DNA from: Hydrogenophaga sp. PBL-H3
GTDB lineage: Bacteria > Pseudomonadota > Gammaproteobacteria > Burkholderiales > Burkholderiaceae_C
Assembly (NCBI RefSeq): GCF_010104355.1
Contig: NZ_CP044974.1
Coordinates: 1-64,000, forward strand
Direction: 5' to 3'
Length of the DNA: 64,000 bases
Part shown: in pieces, positions 59,075-64,000 of the stretch
Layout of the letters: each line of letters begins with the position of its first letter
How positions within the stretch are numbered: the first letter of the stretch is position 1
Program-made: the position numbers and the translations under genes
The notes under the pieces: model-generated
Told to the model about the DNA's origin: nothing
The model's database searches: none
Seen by the model: the letters and a program-made list of their open reading frames with translations, nothing else

Positions 59075-60166
59075 TCAAGCCAACTTTCGAAGCTTTCGCA
59101 GGCCGTCAACGACGGCGTGCTCAAGAAGCTCAGGCTTGAGTTCAGCATAGGTGTCGGCCTCAATGACGATCGTCAGCTCCCCCCCCTTTCCGCGGGTCGC
59201 AGTGCCGAACTTGTGGTCTTGGGACTGCAATTCGATGCGCTCGACTTTCTCGAAGCGAGGACTTACATCGATGAGTCTTGCAACGACCACAGCGGCAGAC
59301 AGATTCTGCCCGCGAACCTTTTCGGCGCGCTTGAGCACTCCGCGACGATCCTTTTCGAGCGCCGCATGGATCTGCTCCGCATGACGAAAGTTGATCTCTA
59401 GCGGGCTTCTGAAGCAGTCGACGATGGCGTCGGGCAGCTGAGCAACCAGGAGGGCTTTTCGCACCCACGTGTGGCTGACGCCTAACGCTTCCGCCAGTTG
59501 GCGTTGGGTTGGAAAAAGCTGCTCGTCGAGCGCGCGCTGGTACATCACGCCTTGCTCGAACGAGGACAGGTCGGCGCGCTCCCGGTTCTCCCTATCCATG
59601 AGTTCAAAAAGCGCCTTGTCGCCCAGGTCTTCGATCCATACCGATGCAAGCACCGGGATCCCGAGCTCGAGGCAGGCCTGGTGCCTCCGGTGGCCAAAGA
59701 CCAGTTCGAACTCCCCCGGAAGATCGATCACAGGCCGCACAAGGATTGGCTGGACGTTGCCTCCGGCGTGCTCGATATCAGCCTTCAGGCCGGCAAATTC
59801 GCTCGTCGCGAACGAGGCCTTGTGACGGTTAGCGTAGCGGCTGTGGCGGATGGTCTTCGGATCCATCTTGCGCGTGGGTAGCGCGCCTTCGTACTGGCGC
59901 AGCTTGTCCCGCAAGGACGCCATCTCACCCTCCACCTGCTGGATCTGCCCTCGAAACGCGAGCATCTGTCCGGGTCCCGTACGCGGAAGAAAGCCGCCCA
60001 CAGCTGCGGGTGGAAACCTGGTTTCCATGCCTGGGGCTGCGGACGGCGCCTGATCCGGTGCGGGCGGAGAAACCGGCATATTGGGCGCTGACCTTTCCAA
60101 GTCGGCCGGGAGAGAGAGCCCTGCCGTCAGTGCTTCGAGTCGCTTGCGTGTGCTTGCCATGGTCAT
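59075..60166 (-). CDS. parB: ParB-family centromere-binding protein (module II)
   Basis: A 363-residue ParB. N-terminal linker with a coiled coil (FRGQIQQVEGEMASLRDKLRQYEG), then the ParB N-domain (PILVRP, FELVFGHRRHQACLELGIPV, ELMDRENRERADLSSFEQG) and a helix-turn-helix QRQLAEALGVSHTWVRKALLVAQLPD. Start ATG 60166, with AAGGA upstream, overlaps the preceding frame's stop (ATGA); ATG 60160 is an alternative. It is not related closely to the module I ParB. One 19-bp palindrome lies inside the gene at 60010. Confidence 0.9.
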   Translation of the reverse strand: MTMASTRKRLEALTAGLSLPADLERSAPNMPVSPPAPDQAPSAAPGMETRFPPAAVGGFLPRTGPGQMLAFRGQIQQVEGEMASLRDKLRQYEGALPTRKMDPKTIRHSRYANRHKASFATSEFAGLKADIEHAGGNVQPILVRPVIDLPGEFELVFGHRRHQACLELGIPVLASVWIEDLGDKALFELMDRENRERADLSSFEQGVMYQRALDEQLFPTQRQLAEALGVSHTWVRKALLVAQLPDAIVDCFRSPLEINFRHAEQIHAALEKDRRGVLKRAEKVRGQNLSAAVVVARLIDVSPRFEKVERIELQSQDHKFGTATRGKGGELTIVIEADTYAELKPELLEHAVVDGLRKLRKLA

Positions 60167-60911
60167 GCTTCCTTGTAGAGGCGCGAGACTGATTCGGAGT
60201 GTCCGCGTCGGATTTCGGCACGCAGGACGGGACCACGTTCGGTGCCATAGTGCGGCGTCCATAGGCGACAGAATGCCGACATCTGGTCAGTATGGAATTC
60301 TCTCGAAGAGCCACCCACCTGCGACACTTCGCTGGAAACCAGGTTTCCACTGTTCCAAGTAGCCAGGACGGGAGCCCTACCTTTGGTCGAAGTTGGGCAC
60401 GGGCTGCGGCCCTGCCCTCTGCTGTGTGCTGTAGGCTCGGACGTGGAAACCTGGTTTCCACATCCACCCCCTGCGCAGTTTCTGCGCACGCTTGCCCGCG
60501 GATTCGATGTCTCGCCCCGAAGTCTGTTCGACGTTAGATGTGTGATCGTGGCGTTCCGCGCGGCCTCCAGGCCGGATGTGGAGACCTGGTTTCCAGATCC
60601 GGCGCTTGCGGCTCGCTGACGTGAGCCCGCCGGCCCTGTGAACGCGGCACCCGCACTTGGCCGGCGCGCCGATCGCCTGCCTTCGATTTCCTCCACGACT
60701 GCCGAGCCCTGTATGGCAACCTGGTTTCCACAAAACTCTTCGAGTTTTCGAGCGACGCATGGCTCCGGGATCGATGCGCAACGCATGTTCTGATCCGACG
60801 CCAGTCGGAAGAGTTGGGCTCCGGCCGCGCCCACCAAACTCATCGCGGAAACCTGGTTTCCACACGCCCTGAGATTTGCAGCCGACAACTGCGTGGAAAC
60901 CAGGTTTCCAC
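60010..60911. repeat. seven 19-bp parS-like palindromes
   Basis: Copies of GTGGAAACC[T/A]GGTTTCCAC lie at 60010 (last base differs), 60332, 60443, 60578, 60713, 60845 and 60893. An eighth is at 62134-62152 inside parA. Copies at 60443 and 60893 are perfect; the others have one to three changes. Centres of the six intergenic copies are 111, 135, 135, 132 and 48 bp apart, all multiples of three. They are the likely ParB-binding centromere. Confidence 0.9.
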
Positions 60912-60948
60912 CGTTGCGCCGGTCGCTGCTGGTCCCTCTCCGCTTCAT
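60163..60948 (-). CDS. candidate 261-codon frame spanning the centromere array
   Basis: An open frame linking parA and parB with ATGA overlaps at both ends: its ATG (60948) overlaps the parA stop and its TGA (60163) overlaps the parB ATG. It contains all six palindromes of the array in one phase, each read as G-N-[Q/L]-V-[S/A]. The rest is low in recognisable structure, rich in Arg, Ser, Ala and Cys. It may encode a real repetitive protein or simply be an open spacer kept for translational coupling. No family is recognised. Confidence 0.35.
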   Translation of the reverse strand: MKRRGTSSDRRNGGNLVSTQLSAANLRACGNQVSAMSLVGAAGAQLFRLASDQNMRCASIPEPCVARKLEEFCGNQVAIQGSAVVEEIEGRRSARRPSAGAAFTGPAGSRQRAASAGSGNQVSTSGLEAARNATITHLTSNRLRGETSNPRASVRRNCAGGGCGNQVSTSEPTAHSRGQGRSPCPTSTKGRAPVLATWNSGNLVSSEVSQVGGSSREFHTDQMSAFCRLWTPHYGTERGPVLRAEIRRGHSESVSRLYKEA

Positions 60949-62177
60949 CGGTGCGCCCTGCCCTGGCCCTGCCAGGCGCCCACCATCGACTGCTCAACCA
61001 GTTCTACGAACGAGTCGTACGCCTCCACGGCGCGCTTGTAGGTCTTGGCCGCGCCCTCATACTTCTGCACGTCATAGACGGTGGCGAACTCCGCCGCCTT
61101 ATTGCTCGTCACACTGGTCTTGGGGATCTCGACCGGCAAGGTGTACTCACCATACGTCGCCTGGATCCACTGCCGCACGGCTGGCATCGCCGGATCGGAT
61201 GCGTCAACCCGGCTTAGAAGCACGTGTAGGAAATCAAAAGCCTTGCCCTCGCGGTCCTTGCTTTGACCGTCCAGGTTGCCCCCGAGGTCCGCGAGTAGCG
61301 ACCAGAACTGGGCCGAGGACGCGAAGTCCAACCCGGAGGGCGGCACCGGGACCACGATGCCGTTGGCAGCCCAAAGCGCGTTGATGGTGACGTAGGAGAG
61401 GGAAGGGGGGGTGTCAATGACAATAACGTCATAGAGATCGCGCACGCTTTCCAGCCCCATGTTGAGCACGTCCCAGAACTTGGCGCCAGGTTCCTGCATC
61501 TGGCGCGCCGGCAAGGCGAACTCGGCCGAGAAGAGGAAAGGGGCCGCGGCGACCAGGTCAATGCCGTCCCAATAGGTCGACCGGATGGCGTACCGAATGT
61601 CGCTTTGTGTACCGTCGCACAGCGGGCCGATGGTCATGTCCTCGGTCACCTCGGCCTCCGGGAGCAAACCGTGCAGCGTGGTGAGTGACCCTTGCGGATC
61701 GGTGTCGATCGCCAGGACTCGGTGGCCCCGCAGACTCAGCCCCTGCGCGAGGATCATGGCGGTGGTCGTCTTCGCCACCCCGCCCTTGAAGTTACCCACC
61801 GCGATCGTGATGGCCTTGCGGTCCGCGGGGCGCATCTTTTCGCCGCGGTAAGTGCGAGTCCAGCGCCGGAGCTCGTCCAAGCCAAAAACGCGCTTGCCGC
61901 CGGAAGGCGACAGGCGCCCGGCCGGAAGGTCCTCCTTGGTGATACGGTACGCAATGTGCGCCTTGTCCATCCCGCACAGCGCGGCCAGCTGCGCCGTGGA
62001 GTAGGTGGGGGCCGTCTTGCGGGCCTCGGGGGCCAGGAGCATGCCCCGGATCTGCTCGACCATGGAGCCGGCGCGGGCCGCTAGGCCAGCGATGCGCTCC
62101 ATGTTGATGGTTGGGCGCGGTGGGGCAATGTCAGTGGAAACCTGGTTTCCACCGACTGGCGGTACGAGAGCGGACAT
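60945..62177 (-). CDS. parA: type Ia ParA partition ATPase (module II)
   Basis: A 410-residue ParA with an N-terminal DNA-binding part (YSTAQLAALCGMDKAHIAYRI, a helix-turn-helix) and a Walker ATPase domain: VGNFKGGVAKTTTAMILA, LAIDTDPQGSLTTLHG and DVIVIDTPPS. Type Ia ParA proteins also repress their own promoter. A palindrome copy at 62134-62152 encodes GGNQVST in its N-terminus. Its start is 13 bp from an inverted repeat that may be its operator. The stop overlaps the next frame. Confidence 0.93.
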   Translation of the reverse strand: MSALVPPVGGNQVSTDIAPPRPTINMERIAGLAARAGSMVEQIRGMLLAPEARKTAPTYSTAQLAALCGMDKAHIAYRITKEDLPAGRLSPSGGKRVFGLDELRRWTRTYRGEKMRPADRKAITIAVGNFKGGVAKTTTAMILAQGLSLRGHRVLAIDTDPQGSLTTLHGLLPEAEVTEDMTIGPLCDGTQSDIRYAIRSTYWDGIDLVAAAPFLFSAEFALPARQMQEPGAKFWDVLNMGLESVRDLYDVIVIDTPPSLSYVTINALWAANGIVVPVPPSGLDFASSAQFWSLLADLGGNLDGQSKDREGKAFDFLHVLLSRVDASDPAMPAVRQWIQATYGEYTLPVEIPKTSVTSNKAAEFATVYDVQKYEGAAKTYKRAVEAYDSFVELVEQSMVGAWQGQGRAHR

Positions 62178-62190
62178 ATTGAAGAAGCCT

Positions 62191-62232
62191 CATTCGACAG
62201 AATTCGGCGATTCTATGAGAATCTGCCGAATG
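62191..62232. promoter_or_regulatory. inverted repeat upstream of parA (module II)
   Basis: CATTCGACAGAATTC and GAGAATCTGCCGAATG form an imperfect inverted repeat just upstream of the parA ATG. It is AT-richer than its surroundings and is a good candidate for the ParA operator/promoter. Confidence 0.6.
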
Positions 62233-62433
62233 AACAAGTTTCAGCCATTCTCCCCTGGAACACCCTCCGCGAAGTGTGAGGTTTATTGGGGAACCGGGGC
62301 TTTGGCGGGTCACCAACGCGTTCCGCCAAGGGGTTGAGACGGCCTTTCCCACCCGTGGGCACATCCTTATGGCCCTCTGCAGGGCTATGCACGGGGCGCT
62401 GAGGGATTGAAGGAGGGCGGTTGCCCATATCCA

Positions 62434-62538
62434 CTCACATCAAACCCCAAGCCACCTCACATCTTGGTTGATAGGAACCCAGATCTGCTCACCTCAAATC
62501 CCATCCGTTCTCACATTATTTCCCAAGGAACCTCACAC
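62434..62538 (+). repeat. iteron array of the module II origin
   Basis: CTCAC[A/C][T/C]-type iterons start at 62434, 62456, 62488, 62510 and 62532. Spacing is 22 bp except one step of 32 bp (22 plus about one helical turn). An inverted GTGTGAG copy is at 62274-62280. The array lies 170 bp upstream of the Rep gene, as in Rep_3 plasmids. Confidence 0.75.
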
Positions 62539-62703: not shown

Positions 62704-64000
62704 ATGGTCGAGGACGAATCCCCGCGCAGTTCGCCTCGCCCACCCCCCTCGGTCGAGGAGCAAAGCGTTGCCAAGGCCAACGAGGCCATCGCCATCCGCC
62801 CGAAGCGCGGACGCCTGACCCTGCTTTCTCGGCGCATCTATAACGCGCTGCTCTACCATTCCCAGCGTCAGGGCGTTGACGAGCCGGTTTACCGATTGGC
62901 CCTGAGCGAGTTGATCGGTGACGCACGCTTCAACTCCAACAACACGGAGCTGCTGAAGTCCCATCTGCGCGATATGCAGGCGACGACGATCGAATGGTCG
63001 ACCAGCAGCAGCTCGCTCAAGCGCTGGGTTTCGTCCCAGCTGCTGGGCACCGTGACCATCGAGGAGCAGGGCAGGGGGCGCCCGTGCATGGTCACTTGGC
63101 GCTATCCCGAGGAAATAAAGGAGCGCCTCGTCAAGCCCCACCAGTACACGCGGGTGTTGCTCGAGATGAGCAGCCAGATGCGCAGCTACTCGGCGGCCGT
63201 GCTCTACGAGATCGGTGCTCGTTACCTGACTTCGCCCGGTCGGTTGTCCATGCGAGAGGACGTAATGTGGTGGGCTGCGGTCCTGACCGGTCGCAGCGAT
63301 ATCAAGGAAGTGGACTACCGCTTCCTCAAGCGCGACGTCATCAGCAAGGCGATCGCCGAGATCGACGCCTTGTGCGAGGAGTTCGGGTTGGAGCTGATCG
63401 AGCACAAGAGAGGCCGCAAGATCGAGGAAATCCAGTTCCGAGTGGTCCCCAAGGTTCAGCAGCGGCTTGAGGACATCAACGCCGCCAACCGCAACGTTTT
63501 CGACCTGGAGCTGGTGGGGCGCCTGATTGCGCTGGGGATCAAGCAAGACGAGGCGCAGGACCTCTATGCAACCACGGACGAGGGGCAGATCCGCGCGACC
63601 CTGGATCACGTCGACGCGCGACTGCGCAGCGCTACGATGCCGGCTCTGAAATCGCCTGCCGCCTATTTCAAGGACGCACTCAAGAAGGGTTACGCGGGCG
63701 TCGGCATCGCGGTGCCCGCTTCGCCGCCGGACGAGCCAGGCGCCGCACCCGCTACGTCCGTTCCCACGCTGTCGGAGGGCGACCGCCTGCGGCGCATCCG
63801 CGAACTGTGGGAAAACGATCAGATGGCCAAGGCGCGCGCGATGTATGCGGAAATGCTGGAGCCGATGCAGGCGGAGTGGCGGACACGTTTCCAGGTCGAG
63901 CAGCTTGAGAAGGTTGCCTCTCCCATCGCGCGTGCCTGGCGCCGCGATGGGCCGGCCAGTCGCATTGCCGGGACGACGTTCTTCAAATGGCTGGCCGGCA
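62704..64000 (+). CDS. Rep_3-type replication initiator (partial)
   Basis: At least 432 residues, open to the window edge. The N-terminal region resembles Rep_3 winged-helix initiators: LTLLSRRIYNALLYHSQ, YRLALSELIGDARFNSNN, LGTVTIEEQGRG, PHQYTRVLLEMSSQMRSYSAAVLYEI and KEVDYRFLKRDVISKAIAEID. The C-terminal part is an extension common in large plasmids of beta-proteobacteria. ATG 62704 lacks a clear ribosome site; GTG 62677 in the same frame has AGG upstream. It is unrelated to the RepA at position 1. Confidence 0.8.
   Translation, partial: MVEDESPRSSPRPPPSVEEQSVAKANEAIAIRPKRGRLTLLSRRIYNALLYHSQRQGVDEPVYRLALSELIGDARFNSNNTELLKSHLRDMQATTIEWSTSSSSLKRWVSSQLLGTVTIEEQGRGRPCMVTWRYPEEIKERLVKPHQYTRVLLEMSSQMRSYSAAVLYEIGARYLTSPGRLSMREDVMWWAAVLTGRSDIKEVDYRFLKRDVISKAIAEIDALCEEFGLELIEHKRGRKIEEIQFRVVPKVQQRLEDINAANRNVFDLELVGRLIALGIKQDEAQDLYATTDEGQIRATLDHVDARLRSATMPALKSPAAYFKDALKKGYAGVGIAVPASPPDEPGAAPATSVPTLSEGDRLRRIRELWENDQMAKARAMYAEMLEPMQAEWRTRFQVEQLEKVASPIARAWRRDGPASRIAGTTFFKWLAG

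Follow-up and report, generated by a model that had tools for sequence, protein, structure and literature searches.

A reading frame kept open through a parS-like palindrome array between parA and parB in a Hydrogenophaga plasmid and its relatives

We analyzed a stretch of 64,000 nucleotides (nt), hereafter the window, which comprises positions 1-64000 of a 104,808-base contig from Hydrogenophaga sp. PBL-H3, and found that its partition genes parA and parB are separated by an open frame that is joined to both genes by ATGA overlaps and carries an array of parS-like palindromes. Among relatives with long parA-parB spacers the open frame, and not the phase of the palindromes within it, is the rule of the family, and the amino acids that this frame encodes evolve almost freely. 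From these comparisons of sequence we read the locus as a type I ParABS operon in which most of the centromere would lie between parA and parB, and in which the frame would be kept open for translation itself, the peptide being a by-product; we put the probability of this reading at roughly two in three.

Results

A parS-like array inside an open frame between parA and parB

A sequence-only reading of the window had described a centromere-like palindrome array carried in phase inside an open frame between the two par genes. The elements of the locus are as follows, the palindromes being given without strand and counted from parA towards parB.

60945..62177, minus strand: parA, 410 codons, a ParA ATPase related to RepA/SopA
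62134..62152: parS-like palindrome in the 5′ end of parA, read GGNQVS
60945..60948, minus strand: ATGA, the spacer start codon overlapping the parA stop (TGA)
60163..60948, minus strand: putatively translated spacer, a 261-codon open frame with six palindromes and no recognised family
60893..60911: parS-like palindrome 1 of the spacer, 0 mismatches
60845..60863: parS-like palindrome 2 of the spacer, 1 mismatch
60713..60731: parS-like palindrome 3 of the spacer, 2 mismatches
60578..60596: parS-like palindrome 4 of the spacer, 2 mismatches
60443..60461: parS-like palindrome 5 of the spacer, 0 mismatches
60332..60350: parS-like palindrome 6 of the spacer, 1 mismatch
60163..60166, minus strand: ATGA, the upstream parB ATG overlapping the spacer stop (TGA)
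59075..60160, minus strand: parB from its annotated start at 60160, with an in-frame ATG at 60166
60010..60028: parS-like palindrome in the 5′ end of parB, 1 mismatch, read METRFP

The 261-codon frame between the parA stop at 60945 and parB was thus found as described, with an ATGA overlap at each end. The parB start had been placed at 60166, and an in-frame ATG is indeed present there, but the gene table of the plasmid gives the start two codons later, at 60160, which is where the N-termini of relatives align. The six 19-bp palindromes of the spacer lie in frame, with centre-to-centre distances of 48, 132, 135, 135 and 111, each divisible by three; the a priori chance of one common phase is (1/3)^5 = 0.4%. 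Their reading as G-N-[Q/L]-V proved correct, as did that of the parA copy at 62134. The common phase holds for these six, but the copy in parB is in another phase.

The palindromes cluster at this locus. Eight matches to GTGGAAACCWGGTTTCCAC occur in the window, each with at most 2 mismatches, whereas shuffles predict 0.01, and the 17-bp core, allowing at most 2 mismatches, is found at 8 places genome-wide, all of them at the par locus. The palindrome is 19 bp long, and hence odd, with A/T at its centre, where some relatives have C or G. Exact palindrome cores were found in 15 of 399 family genomes, and the par locus fetched from each holds at least two exact cores in 12 of the 14 genomes other than the window's own. 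We regard these palindromes as putative ParB-binding sites. A variant palindrome, TGGCAACCNGGTTGCCA, occurs in L010 (Methylibium) and L012 (Sphaerotilus), loci being cited by number; parB of the former and parA of the latter appear frame-shifted.

The copy in the 5′ end of parA allowed the constraint on DNA to be compared with that on protein. Across 15 loci, the proportions of differing synonymous (pS) and nonsynonymous (pN) sites within this palindrome were 0.045 and 0.149, a pN/pS ratio of 3.3, and the free central base switches the residue between Q and L; pN/pS was 0.33 in parA codons 1-25 outside the palindrome and 0.053 in the remainder of the gene. The motif G-N-[Q/L]-V is present in 33 of 36 parA 5′ ends, the exceptions being L012, L054 and L063. 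Here the DNA is held and the protein yields, which fits a binding site written into the gene.

The sample of relatives

The loci came from plasmid records, from species genomes scanned with ParB (16 loci) and from the palindrome search of the 399 family genomes (15 matched); a palindrome search of four genera gave 4 further loci, 3 of which repeat earlier ones. Dropped before any counts were L001-L004 (the window's own genome), L005, L018, L019 and L034 (identical to the window here), L011 (the same matches as L010), the 14 short stretches L020-L033 (replaced by L050-L063), and L013-L017, in which parA and parB are nearly adjacent and no palindrome was found within 4 mismatches. This left 40 rows. 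In 24 of them the spacer reaches 230 nt or more, and in 16 it is shorter; once repeats are merged, they give 36 distinct loci: 22, including the window, with a parA-parB spacer of 231-892 nt (L061 and L065 repeat L059) and 14 with a spacer of 14-202 nt (L066 repeats L047, and L067 repeats L046).

With the palindromes and ends masked, the 22 long spacers fall into 14 mutually unalignable types. L035, the nearest relative of the window by ParA (95% identical), differs in spacer length (372 nt, compared with 784 in the window), and its spacer cannot be aligned with that of the window at those settings. In a tree built without the four duplicates and without L012 and L063, whose parA is frame-shifted or incomplete, the 22 long-spacer loci share one supported ParA clade, which points to one inherited rule kept through spacer turnover rather than to 14 inventions. 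Measurements of pN/pS and simulations of substitution were confined to four alignable groups that comprise 13 of the 22 long loci; L038 was placed with L036 and L043, though it is separate in the masked comparison.

The spacer frame is free of stops in all long-spacer loci

In all 22 long-spacer loci the frame overlapping the parA stop contains no stop codon, that is, 0 in 2,721 codons, whereas the other two forward frames of the same spacers contain 46 and 41 (the last 18 nt before parB are omitted from these counts). In the flanks, taken as the 300 nt before parA and the 250 nt after parB and assumed to be mostly non-coding, stops pooled over three frames amount to 160/6,258 (2.6%) and 127/5,456 (2.3%).

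Such a frame might arise by chance in GC-rich DNA. The guanine-plus-cytosine (GC) content of the long spacers is 58-71%, every forward frame is stop-free in L006, L007 and L042, and in shuffles that preserve dinucleotides and palindromes the probability of an open frame is 0.0105-0.75 per locus, with a value of 0.0145 for the window that is insufficient by itself to reject chance. Over the 14 types, the product of these probabilities, taking the largest in each type, is nevertheless 10^-13.5. The alignable groups give a second measure: the substitutions observed in them would be expected to create 2.8, 1.6, 1.8 and 3.1 new stops in the frame (9.3 in total), and none was seen (joint probability approximately 7e-5, the product of the four group values), whereas the other two frames, with 12.4 and 9.7 stops expected and 11 and 13 polymorphic stop sites observed, gain and lose stops at the neutral rate. 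On the stop counts, the shuffles and the polymorphic stops taken together, we rejected a chance open frame, which we consider very improbable.

Insertions and deletions follow the same pattern: each of the six gaps located within aligned spacers has a length divisible by three. A single-base difference between L059 and L060 lies at most 15 bases from the parB start, as judged from lengths and end contexts, and the L059 frame fuses to parB. The short-spacer relatives are not uniform: the frame is open to parB in 7 of 14 and stops 15-69 nt short of it in the other 7.

The encoded amino acids evolve almost freely

In the four alignable groups, pN/pS of the spacer frame was 0.85, 0.66, 0.71 and 0.86, inside the range of 0.58-1.25 obtained when the same DNA was read out of frame, whereas the flanking genes of the same loci gave 0.018-0.052 (parA) and 0.057-0.136 (parB). 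The mean GC content at the three codon positions is nearly flat in the 22 spacers (0.63/0.63/0.68) compared to their parA genes (0.64/0.48/0.83). The amino acids of the spacer are, in other words, near neutral, a result that comes from alignable relatives, the window's own spacer being unalignable.

These values bear directly on the possibility that the frame encodes a fast-evolving, functional small protein. The frame is open in each of the long loci, mostly in start-like contexts, its pN/pS is 0.66-0.86, and 5 of the 22 spacers show a coding-like dip in GC at position 2, all of which would suit such a protein; on the other hand, the ratios do not leave the out-of-frame range, and frame length varies between 80 and 309 codons, or 487 in the case fused to parB, across types that cannot be aligned with one another. 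Moreover, the window frame (60163-60948) has no Pfam or NCBIfam match at expectation values (E) up to 1. AlphaFold2 gave it a mean predicted local distance difference test score (pLDDT) of 37.8, which is weak evidence because no alignment is possible and a single sequence was used. Taken together, these data make a functional small protein improbable. A tblastn search with the 261 residues of the window frame at E up to 1e-3 returned identical copies only, and the plasmid gene table, which is incomplete by its own description, has no entry in this frame.

Palindrome phase is not conserved

The single phase seen in the window does not extend to the family. Palindrome phases are mixed in 9 of the 14 spacer types, and with one locus per type the three phases are occupied by 22, 9 and 17 palindromes. 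Adjacent palindromes share a phase in 18 of 34 pairs against an expectation of 1/3 (p = 0.014, one locus per type), which we regard as a weak tendency; the window is its extreme case, with 5 of 5 pairs in phase, and single phases are also found in L041, L048, L035 and L042. Since none of the three frames of the consensus palindrome includes a stop codon, a common phase is unnecessary for keeping the spacer frame open.

The sequence-only reading had offered two interpretations, either a coupled spacer in which reading continues unbroken through the centromere or a true repeat protein encoded by the centromere itself. The first is supported by the absence of stops, the triplet gaps and, in 21 of 22 loci, a frame end at the start of parB. 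The second draws on the G-N-[Q/L]-V reading shared by all six window palindromes and on the four single-phase relatives, but the palindromes of the family occupy all three phases, and the linkers between them are near neutral in alignable relatives. We therefore rejected a repeat protein on pN/pS, codon-position GC and mixed phases, to which the tblastn result may be added, and consider it barely credible. It had also been argued that stops, frame-shifting gaps, non-triplet palindrome spacings or loss of the ATGA overlaps in homologous loci would count against the idea as a whole. Neither stops nor frame-shifting gaps are present inside aligned spacers, but many relatives have palindrome spacings that are not multiples of three, and exact ATGA is absent at the parA stop in 4/22 loci, which have GTGA, TTGA or CTGA instead, and in 2/22, where the stop is TAG. 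These departures remove the argument from phase and leave the open frame standing.

The frame ends at the start of parB

Measured from the parB ATG, the end of the frame lies at -5 in the window, -4 in L035, +5 in 15 loci, +14 in 3 and +31 in L064, and thus between -5 and +31 nt in 21 of 22 long loci; in L059 it is fused in frame to parB. Where the frame ends at +5 (15 loci), parB codons 2-3 supply its stop, an out-of-frame TAG (GCT AGC, GCT AGT or TCT AGT). The position of this stop follows from the grouping, and the informative part is the codon choice, in loci that are related and hence not independent events: codon 2 is GCT in 12 and TCT in 3 of them, whereas elsewhere in those parB genes GCT makes up 61 of 755 alanine codons and TCT 6 of 318 serine codons, and in the seven loci of other phases codon 2 is GCG, GCC or GCA. 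At the other end, pairing to the anti-Shine-Dalgarno core ahead of the spacer start ranks, at the median, within the best 5% of parA positions of the same phase.

These ends could also be explained by strict translational coupling only, in which ribosomes arriving from parA are needed for the parB start and fix the ParA:ParB ratio, with no role in polarity or at roadblocks. The tight frame ends and the TAG built from codons that are rare elsewhere in the same genes would agree with coupling, and in alphaproteobacterial repABC operons the repB start overlaps the repA stop as ATGA in 15 of 29 readable loci. However, parB has its own pairing to the anti-Shine-Dalgarno core in 22 of 22 loci (between -5.4 and -10.9 kcal/mol, with no computed background), so that coupling may be unnecessary for its start, and the 7 of 14 short-spacer relatives without a frame reaching parB indicate that coupling is not always needed. 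Strict coupling as the whole explanation is therefore unlikely in our view.

Gene content and plasmid context

The par region of the window is 100% identical to that of plasmid pPBL-H3_B2-2 of Hydrogenophaga sp. PBL-H3, a strain described, in the excerpts of the report used here, as having a PromA gamma plasmid with linuron catabolic genes (PMC7039861). ParA matches the profiles AAA_31 (E 7.3e-32) and CbiA (4e-16), as a Walker-type ATPase would, and has a weak N-terminal helix-turn-helix (HTH) match to HTH_17, whose score of 16.6 bits (E 0.0095) falls short of the cut-off, 27. ParB scores above the cut-offs for ParB_N (27.4 bits against 26.3), SoPB_HTH (37.4 against 27), HTH_ParB (24.5 against 22.6) and TIGR00180 (97.3 bits). 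A scan of viral contigs with parA gave no match.

Downstream of parB the next listed genes are istB/istA of IS21, and a divergent replication initiation (rep) gene lies upstream of parA:

62704..64000, plus strand: replication initiation gene, divergent, extending beyond the window end

Between this gene and parA, diverged direct repeats of 39 nt at 62424-62538 are possibly iterons of the replication origin, and inverted repeats of the ATTCGGC/GCCGAAT type immediately upstream of parA (~62185-62232, seen by eye only) are a possible ParA operator. The start of parA is annotated differently on identical DNA, giving 385 residues in PBL-H3 and PBS-H4 (start 62102) and 410 in WDL1 (start 62177); we favour the 410-residue form because codons 1-25 are conserved in 15 loci. 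The replicon with this par locus is also recorded by itself, as plasmid 5 of Variovorax sp. WDL1 (24,964 bp), which covers 90% of window positions 39001-64000 at 100% identity. Identity to the par region reaches 99% or more in no plasmid records other than this one, PBS-H4 plasmid 3 and PBL-H3. It is possible that the plasmid of PBL-H3 arose as a cointegrate with a second rep-par unit.

Discussion

From these patterns in sequence we infer that ribosomes translate the spacer frame and that the benefit lies in the expression of parB. Ribosomes leaving parA would continue through the parS array and stop at parB, the peptide would be a by-product, and selection would keep the translation itself. 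We consider three benefits in combination the most likely. First, ribosomes covering the long RNA would act as a shield against polarity, keeping Rho-dependent termination from cutting off parB; second, trailing ribosomes would help RNA polymerase to pass ParB-bound parS; and third, parB would receive ribosomes by hand-over where its start codon overlaps the stop of the frame. The shield is favoured because only the long spacers obey the open-frame rule without exception, whereas short ones may stop 15-69 nt before parB, and an untranslated gap of that size is short for a Rho loading site. Hand-over is favoured by the tight frame ends and the use of TAG at parB codons 2-3, but is disfavoured as the sole reason because parB has its own anti-Shine-Dalgarno pairing. 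A more elaborate proposal is a centromere that requires translation, in which moving ribosomes and polymerase would displace or traverse the ParB-parS complex; ParB synthesis would then depend on the state of the centromere, with the occupancy of the partition complex fed back to parB expression. We consider this speculative and rather doubtful.

Several observations weigh against the interpretation that the frame is kept open for translation itself. The statistical case is unevenly distributed, in that the eleven spacers of 231-252 nt have shuffle probabilities of 0.23-0.75 and carry little information each, most of the weight falls on six types (L064, the window, L041, L044, L056 and L048, with probabilities of 0.0125-0.064), and Fisher's method on 13 representatives, which is conservative for all-or-none outcomes, gives only 6e-5. 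The 14 types, sharing one clade, are not fully independent. Within that clade, on a long and uncertain branch, L058 has a spacer of 89 nt whose frame stops 69 nt short of parB, perhaps a secondary loss. Some translation signals do not conform either: the parA stop is TAG in L056 and L057, where the frame begins at a GTG one codon later, and pairing before the spacer start is unremarkable in L060 (rank 0.55) and in L064 and L059 (0.25), while the pairing of parB itself, noted above, speaks against our interpretation as it does against coupling. Finally, none of the four groups has a pN/pS that quite reaches 1, and position-2 GC is at least 0.08 below that of position 3 in L006, L009, L036, L056 and L057, such that weak coding constraint is possible in these five loci.

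These loci offer, within a single family, a measured case of a frame apparently selected for being translated and not for its product, and this through a probable centromere. Spacers that cannot be aligned, yet obey one rule, let evolution itself test an idea that had earlier been suggested for RepD. Confirmation would explain the presence of parS inside the reading frames of some partition operons, and would mean that such open frames are neither ordinary genes nor empty DNA, a caution for annotators; it would also make the passage of transcription and translation over a ParB-covered site a testable matter.

Comparison with known systems

The locus shares with type I ParABS systems a Walker-type ParA ATPase, a ParB with ParB_N and HTH domains, and repeated palindromes clustered at the par genes. 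It resembles type Ia systems such as sopABC of F and parABS of P1 in the SopB-type HTH of ParB, although the N-terminal HTH of ParA is a weak match only. In F and P1 the centromere lies downstream of the B gene, whereas most of the window's sites lie between the A and B genes, with others in the 5′ ends of both.

The systems below are described from excerpts of the cited reports. Bsr systems, on secondary replicons of Burkholderiales and hence in the same bacterial order, likewise have ParAB with palindromic centromeres, but their palindromic parS measures 16 bp and has CG at its centre (PMC5450999), whereas the window palindrome, GTGGAAACCWGGTTTCCAC, is 19 bp long and odd.

In the Rhizobiales, parS is reported to lie between repA and repB (PMC9040568), and a loop may form through a complex of RepA and RepB that is bound both at the par site and upstream of repA (PMC4231840). 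The repABC operons differ from the present locus in several respects: the window ParA scores 226.8 bits against TIGR03453 (cut-off 348.45) and the window ParB 87.6 bits against 201.5, both below the RepA/RepB cut-offs; its rep gene is divergent; and no repC is found downstream. We also fetched 30 repABC loci as a check of generality, and in the 29 that were readable (all but L083) we found no long repA-repB spacer. The repB start lies no further than 81 nt beyond the repA stop in 27 loci, and no repB start was found in L070 and no convincing one in L095. This sample thus offered nothing on which to extend the test.

In the excerpted open-licence literature we found no description of a centromere spacer that is translated and sequence-neutral in the present family, and only repD emerged. 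It lies between repA and repB of Ti plasmids as a frame with two RepB-binding sites that is transcribed and translated, and the RepD protein is seemingly uninvolved in replication and partition (PMC6090056). The role of repD is described as unclear, with the hypothesis that it ensures expression of repB and repC, and the repD DNA of the plasmids studied there shared 75.2% identity with that of pTiC58 and 56.4% with that of pTiR10 (PMC6546132). We regard repD of the pTiR10 and pTiC58 type as the nearest precedent: both it and the window have an open frame between the A and B genes that carries parS-like sites, and by analogy the window system would work alike without being a member of that group. 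The present family is set apart by a palindrome of 19 bp centred on one base and by frames of up to 309 codons, and, unlike for repD, both the near-neutral amino acids and the kept frame have been measured in it over many loci.

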